Shown here: piece by piece, positions 26,958 to 62,501 of the stretch
Numbering within the stretch: position 1 is the first letter of the stretch
How the letters are laid out: each line of letters opens with the position of its first letter
Assembly (NCBI GenBank): GCA_016281605.1
Contig: JAEEJA010000095.1
Span: 62,001 to 126,000, forward strand
DNA: 64,000 bases
Source of the DNA: Lachnospiraceae bacterium
Lineage (GTDB): Bacteria; Bacillota; Clostridia; Lachnospirales; Lachnospiraceae
Direction of reading: 5' to 3'
Translations under genes and position numbers: made by a program
The notes under the pieces: model-generated
The model's database searches: none
The model's input: the letters and a program-made list of their open reading frames with translations, nothing else
What the model was told of the DNA's origin: nothing

Positions 26958-27020
26958 TTTTAACTCAGTCGTAGAAATTCCCTTCCTCTAAGCTAAAGCG
27001 TAGGCGGGAGTAATGACAAA
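26958..27020 (+). repeat. Intergenic element A (IS200/IS605 right-end / omega-RNA-like)
   Basis: TTTAACTCAGTCGTAGAAATTCCCTTCCTCTAAGCTAAAGCGTAGGCGGGAGTAATGA; shares TTTAACTCAGTCG.AGAAAT.CCC..CCTCTAAGCTAAAG with element B (rc). Confidence 0.6.
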
Positions 27021-27088
27021 CTTTACTCAGTCGTGGTTCAAGTTCCTGACTTTAAGAGCTGCTTCGAAACTCTATAAACGTTCCGTAA

Positions 27089-49633: not shown

Positions 49634-49708
49634 ATTGCCCTTACTCCTCTTTTTCCTTCATTTACTTTAAATGTTTTTAATTATTATAATTTACGTATTG
49701 TCAATATC

Positions 49709-49759
49709 CGTACCCACTCTTTAGCTTAGAGGTGGGGGATTTCTCCGACTGAGTTAAAA
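49709..49759 (-). repeat. Intergenic element B (IS200/IS605 right-end / omega-RNA-like)
   Basis: Minus strand TTTTAACTCAGTCGGAGAAATCCCCCACCTCTAAGCTAAAGAGTGGGTACGG; CCCCCAC/GTGGGT stem. Confidence 0.65.
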
Positions 49760-50790: not shown

Positions 50791-50828
50791 TTTAACTCAG
50801 TCGGGGTTCAAGCCCCGACTGAGTTAAA
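50791..50828. repeat. Perfect 16-bp inverted repeat
   Basis: TTTAACTCAGTCGGGG-TTCAAG-CCCCGACTGAGTTAAA. Confidence 0.92.
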
Positions 50829-50848
50829 AAGCTCCGCGAGGATGCACA

Positions 50849-50919
50849 CGGATTCGGATAGGTAAATGTCTGCTAAAGCAGACCCGAATCCGGCGCGCAA
50901 GACTCGCAAGCGAGTCTTG
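50849..50919. repeat. Cluster of nested and adjacent hairpins
   Basis: CGGATTCGG (50849-50857)/CCGAATCCG (50884-50892) enclosing GTCTGC-TAAA-GCAGAC; then CAAGACTCGC-AA-GCGAGTCTTG (50898-50919). Confidence 0.85.
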
Positions 50920-50983
50920 ACATAAAAACGATTATAGATGATAAAATTGTATGATTAAAATATGTTTATTATGTGTATTTGTC

Positions 50984-62388: not shown

Positions 62389-62432
62389 AACTATTCCTTT
62401 CCTATAACAAAACAAATATTTCTAAAAGCCAA

Positions 62433-62448
62433 TACTCGCTTGCGAGTA
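62433..62448. repeat. Short palindrome TACTCGCTTGCGAGTA
   Basis: Core ACTCGCTTGCGAGT is identical to the core of the 50898-50919 palindrome (reverse complement). Confidence 0.85.
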
Positions 62449-62501
62449 CACCCACCCATACTTTGGCTTAGAGATGGGGGATTTCTCCTCCCAAGTTAAC
62501 C
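62449..62501 (-). repeat. Intergenic element C (IS200/IS605 right-end / omega-RNA-like)
   Basis: Minus strand TTAACTTGGGAGGAGAAATCCCCCATCTCTAAGCCAAAGTATGGGTGGGTG; aligned with element B. Confidence 0.65.

Follow-up and report, generated by a model that had tools for sequence, protein, structure and literature searches.

At positions 62433-62501 of the window (the whole stretch of 64,000 nucleotides of Lachnospiraceae DNA analyzed here), a hairpin and a palindrome lie side by side on the minus strand, which raises the question of what kind of repeat this locus, termed copy C, belongs to and how such a repeat is dispersed. A preliminary description had presented it as the third copy, after copies A and B, of an omega-RNA-like element situated beside a shared ACTCGC/GCGAGT palindrome. 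We recovered the reported minus-strand sequence, GGAGAAATCCCCCATCTCTAAGCCAAAGTATGGGTGGGTG followed by TACTCGCAAGCGAGTA, at 62433-62488. The view that A, B, and C are copies of one structured repeat also held: R1, a covariance model built without them, ranked them above every other place in the window, with C located at 62439-62500 (E = 6.6e-6). The sequence of copy C is not a product of chance, since the 13-mer GGAGAAATCCCCC had 40 sites (at most one mismatch) in the 2.72-Mb draft host genome compared to one for a reversed-pattern control. Similarly, the left-end tag TTTAACTCAGTCGG occurred in 45 exact copies in the host genome and its control in none.

Architecture, borders, and distribution of the repeat family

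In its full-length form, the element spans ~190-255 bp; it begins at TTTAA/CTCAGTCGGAG-AAAT-(hairpin) and closes with (ACTCGC..GCGAGT)CTTGAC/, where slashes mark the borders and parentheses the hairpins. The extracted copies gave the modular consensus TTTAA/CTCAGTCGGAGAAAT-(CCCCCACCT..AGGTGGGGG)-TATTGACAAATTATA-(CTCAGTCGGGG..CTCCGACTGAG)TTAAA-inner stems-GGCGCGCAAG(ACTCGC..GCGAGT)CTTGAC/. Copy lengths range from 68 to 255 bp, which is too short for a transposase gene, and 190 bp is the most frequent length among 58 full-length copies from several genomes. The borders of these 58 copies are sharp (TTTAA/C ... TTGAC/), with TTTAA at the left border in most copies, and their flanks are AT-rich and otherwise random by position profile; no target duplication was evident in them, as judged by inspection of the flanks. 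Palindromes lie near both termini, and terminal inverted repeats are absent, the left hairpin and right palindrome not being inverted copies of each other.

The palindrome that had been described as shared forms the element's right end. Its core recurs at 50901-50916 as previously noted, in the form GACTCGC..GCGAGTC, with a different outer base. Its association with the hairpin is systematic rather than coincidental, given that, of the 34 exact palindromes counted in the genome, 10 have an exact left-end tag of the same orientation 53-235 bp upstream, compared to ~0.2 expected. Most of the other palindromes are solo right ends, GTCAAGACTCGC..GCGAGTCTTGAC, or belong to copies whose left end has degraded.

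Aligned to the family, copy C extends over 62428-62495 (minus strand) and is annotated as a core-deleted, "terminal-only," non-autonomous element of IS605 type. In its ~68 bp, the left-end hairpin CCCCCATCT / GGGTGGGTG (62449-62480, delimited by the R1 match) is fused straight to the right-end palindrome TACTCGCAAGCGAGTA (62433-62448), and the same type of junction is present in its closest sister copy, G000:C22:4378-4447. Immediately 5' of the copy, the TTAA at 62496-62499 is the putative left cleavage and target site (the full family motif, TTTAA, is conserved beside more than 100 copies). The AAAT at 62481-62484, 5' of the left hairpin, is the candidate left guide tetranucleotide, in a position that fits IS608-type cross-complementarity with TTAA. 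The right end has decayed, reading ATTGGC where the family has CTTGAC, and the surrounding region upstream of purF lacks synteny in congeners. Copy C is a decayed, core-deleted copy of an ordinary kind; moderate interest attaches to the family, but not to this copy.

The other copies in the window illustrate the same modularity. Copy A (26959-27070, plus strand, 3' limit approximate) comprises the left-end unit and part of the inner module, with an R1 match at 26959-27020 (E = 2e-13), and no right end was found for it. Copy B (49697-49758, minus strand; E = 2e-12) is a left-end unit only, situated between moxR-like and DUF58-like genes, as named from their translations. A further copy at 50791-50921 (plus strand) lacks the first hairpin and consists of TTTAACTCAGTCGGGGTTCAAGCCCCGACTGAGTTAAA..., the inner stems, the right palindrome at 50901-50916, and the end TTGAC. 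Core-deleted forms are common and were also seen at loci L175, L217, L247, L254, and L238.

Besides three congeners, other genera of the Lachnospiraceae carry the family. An exact 24-mer scan identified at least 111 stretches that carry it, with carriers including Eubacterium oxidoreducens DSM 3217, Lachnospira multipara, Lachnospiraceae bacterium C10, Agathobacter ruminis, and rumen metagenome-assembled genomes. The element itself had no match in phage records, plasmid records, or IMG/VR; against Rfam, only a tRNA passed the gathering threshold in the window and relatives gave no match. No earlier description of the family was found in the literature searched, a search that cannot prove novelty. 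This is a high-copy, gene-less mobile DNA repeat of gut and rumen Lachnospiraceae.

Several variants were observed among the fetched loci. Solo right ends occur at L035:1500, L044:1500, L045:1500, L046:1500, L304, L306, and L308, and in L046 the palindrome reaches several bp further into the flanks. Some left ends are now near-perfect palindromes, TTTAACTCAGTCGGAGAAATCCCCCACC...GGTGGGGGATTTCTCCGACTGAGTTAAA (L171:918-990, L201:4750-4820, L239:2967-3040, and L195:6388-6470), and resemble the outcome of one arm serving, through the hairpin, as the template for the other. Another insertion sequence, with the end GACTGTCCGAAAAC, apparently lies inside the left hairpin of several copies (L014, L072, and L251). 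A second repeat family, with arms ACTCGCTCGCGAGT / CTTCCCTACTCGATT, was seen at L307, at L048:1500, and in the right flank of L020; it has the palindrome core in common with the element, but not the element ends.

Relation of the left end to IS605 elements

The left end of the element matches that of complete IS605 elements (tnpA plus tnpB) in L. multipara and the rumen genome RUG847. In L. multipara, this end, TTTAACACGCCGTGAGCAAGAAATCCCCCACCTCTAAAC..GTAGGTGGTGGG, lies ~180 bp upstream of a Y1 tnpA gene that is followed by tnpB. Matching left ends were also found in a TnpB-only element on the Butyrivibrio plasmid pCY360 (87% identity over 78 bp) and in TnpB loci on three IMG/VR contigs, and model R1 finds IS605/TnpB left ends at E-values of 6e-6 to 6e-3. 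None of the IS605/TnpB right ends matched R1, and no similarity was seen between the right end of the element and that of IS605, which reads GAAGC(A)GGAAG(CTCCGACTT..AAGTCGGAG)TAGTTCAC. The IS605 elements with TTTAAC...AAGAAATCCCCCACC left ends (L265/L281 in L. multipara, L282/L283 in RUG847, and L324 on pCY360 of B. proteoclasticus) resemble the family in the TTTAA site, the position of the AAAT guide, and the sequence of the left hairpin; in contrast to the family, they carry tnpA and/or tnpB and have a right hairpin, CTCCGACTT..AAGTCGGAG, ending in TTCAC. In the copy at L152 of strain C10, the first 30 bp of the element are joined to an IS605-type continuation.

These matches bear directly on the omega-RNA-like label, under which the hairpin would be the right-end RNA of a TnpB system. 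Near-identical hairpins do stand at the ends of TnpB-carrying elements, which places the repeat in the IS605 world. However, these hairpins precede tnpA/tnpB at the left end, whereas an omega-RNA is encoded at the right end, 3' of tnpB; because the hairpin matches the left rather than the right end, the label is unsupported. Moreover, the only TnpB locus of the host has neither such a hairpin downstream nor a model match, no TnpB was detected in G014, a genome very rich in copies, and the hairpin matched no Rfam family at gathering, described transposon-associated RNA families included. We therefore regard this reading as highly improbable. The case is a caution for the reading of raw sequence, in which an omega-RNA can wrongly be seen in the left-end hairpin of an IS605-type mini-element.

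Site and guide pairing and the proposed movement

The position rule of IS608 pairs site and guide bases as 1:2, 2:1, and 4:4. In IS608, the four bases that precede the hairpin on its 5' side determine the cleavage site through cross-complementarity (PMC8266576). The site/guide pairs TTAA/AAAT (129 copies), TTAT/AAGA (five copies), and TCAA/GAGT (two copies) of the family all obey this rule. These three combinations were found in different genera, such that site and guide change together, though few independent events underlie the three types, and the register was a post hoc choice. The IS605 ends also fit, with TTAA/AAAT on the left and TCAC/GAAG on the right. At the right end of the element, TGAC/CAAG conforms as well, a match that is weaker evidence because the guide bases also pair as a stem extension; some copies, with AAAG before the right hairpin, fit at two of three positions only. 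With dozens of copies per genome in several genera, these joint switches form a large natural data set in which the IS608 rule can be tested without engineering.

Copy B is absent from the orthologous moxR-DUF58 operon of congeners G001 and G002. The congener sequence keeps a TTTAG/TTAGA-like site where TTTAA stands, at a flank identity of ~78% and for a single empty site; a cross-search of the fetched loci yielded no further ones. Taken together, the fit to the site/guide rule and the absence of copy B support single-strand movement by a Y1 TnpA in trans. Copy C and its family are probably palindrome-associated transposable elements (PATEs), here gene-less derivatives of IS200/IS605 moved as single-stranded DNA by such an enzyme.

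Which TnpA would act, its binding, its strand specificity, and its cleavage positions are inferred. In the proposed scheme, a Y1 HUH transposase (TnpA) supplied in trans would excise an intact element in the form of a single-stranded DNA circle and reinsert that circle. The hairpins at the two ends, CCCCCACCT..AGGTGGGGG on the left and ACTCGC..GCGAGT on the right, would be bound by the enzyme, and its cuts would fall directly after TTTAA and TTGAC, respectively, each site being specified through pairing with the nucleotides immediately 5' of the corresponding hairpin. The circle would then insert 3' of a TTTAA target, with no target duplication.

The modular build, the size of 70-250 bp, the internal deletions, and the hairpins are also features of BOX/ERIC repeats; the sequences differ, and here the left end and the site/guide pairs point to IS200/IS605. 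The closest systems are the PATEs of Haloquadratum walsbyi and a PATE-like, ends-only IS605 sequence of Halanaerobium (PMC3119063, PMC7290912). PATEs and the present family have in common the lack of a gene and of terminal inverted repeats, near-terminal palindromes, no target duplication seen, an IS605-like end, core-deleted terminal-only copies (described for PATEs in PMC3119063), and carriers without a detected intact tnpA. Unlike PATEs, the family resides in another phylum, has its own end sequences, has a right palindrome that also occurs alone, and contains modular inner stems, with the left end repeated among them in inverted orientation.

Stem covariation and the search for a mobilizer

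No Y1 transposase (PF01797) was detected in the host, in the congeners G002 and G003, in G014, or in eight of 18 other element-bearing genomes, which are mostly drafts, such that the gene may be unassembled or lost. The same missing-transposase puzzle was reported for the Haloquadratum PATEs, and the question of movement without a resident tnpA has already been raised there (PMC3119063). If the mobilizer is truly absent from these hosts, such movement becomes testable in cultured rumen bacteria, e.g., E. oxidoreducens.

As a single strand, the canonical full element folds far below its shuffles (z = -9.8). Across 14 divergent copies, pairing holds for 91.6% of the cells that make up the first hairpin and the outer stem (positions 1-16 with 85-100), compared to 35-49% for slid partners. 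In the same copies, eight pairs have changed on both sides, and none of 500 shuffles reached this level of pairing and covariation, though these controls are no substitute for a phylogenetic null. The competing inner hairpin covaries as well; the long stem and the inner hairpin are therefore alternatives. Stem covariation is real across the family, and in this sense the earlier proposal that paired arms are maintained stands; it does not extend to the base change of copy C. There, the C-to-T and G-to-A changes form a compensatory pair only in a shifted register, whereas with the register of the family the new T stands opposite a G that has not changed, i.e., a one-sided change leaving a T·G wobble.

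Such stems could instead mark a chromosomal structured RNA or DNA (a transcript end or a regulatory or processing element) that is spread by an unknown mobilizer and selected for its fold, with the exclusive stems acting as a switch. The deep fold, the covariation of both the long stem and the inner hairpin, and the occurrence of near-identical copies in genomes where no Y1 gene was detected are in line with this, as is the finding that both neighbors lie on the strand of the copy in 44 of 68 copies at fetched loci. Yet copies vary in presence and absence, are often internally deleted, and stand beside unrelated genes, and we consider this explanation unlikely. The bias in direction is also compatible with IS200/IS605 insertion being biased toward one replication strand and with genes lying on the leading strand. 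There is likewise only a slim chance that the family spreads without any Y1 transposase, via another or a horizontally supplied enzyme, and that the exclusive covarying stems have a function of their own as a strand-switching DNA or RNA structure. An outward promoter starting from the TTGACA -35 motif at the ends was also considered and rejected: no TATAAT was found at the right spacing, compared to 3.7 expected.

Movement by a Y1 TnpA in trans, the reading we prefer, has a further competitor in a REP/BIME-like repeat mobilized by a RAYT (TnpA-REP). Like REP/BIME repeats, the family consists of high-copy intergenic hairpins, its right palindromes also stand alone, and in G013 and G072 a RAYT gene lies ~400 bp away from a copy. 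Against this, the RAYTs near copies carry their own flanking GGGGACGG repeats, while the family has neither a GTAG nor a GGGGACGG signature. No RAYT was found in the host draft; the G013 RAYT has no relative there or in G014, nor has either a Y1 match. Mobilization of this kind appears improbable. RAYT-type transposases with their own GGGGACGG-type repeats were observed in G013, Agathobacter ruminis, and SIG321, at L118:1066-1878 (minus strand), L261:1474-2232, and L262:584-1360.
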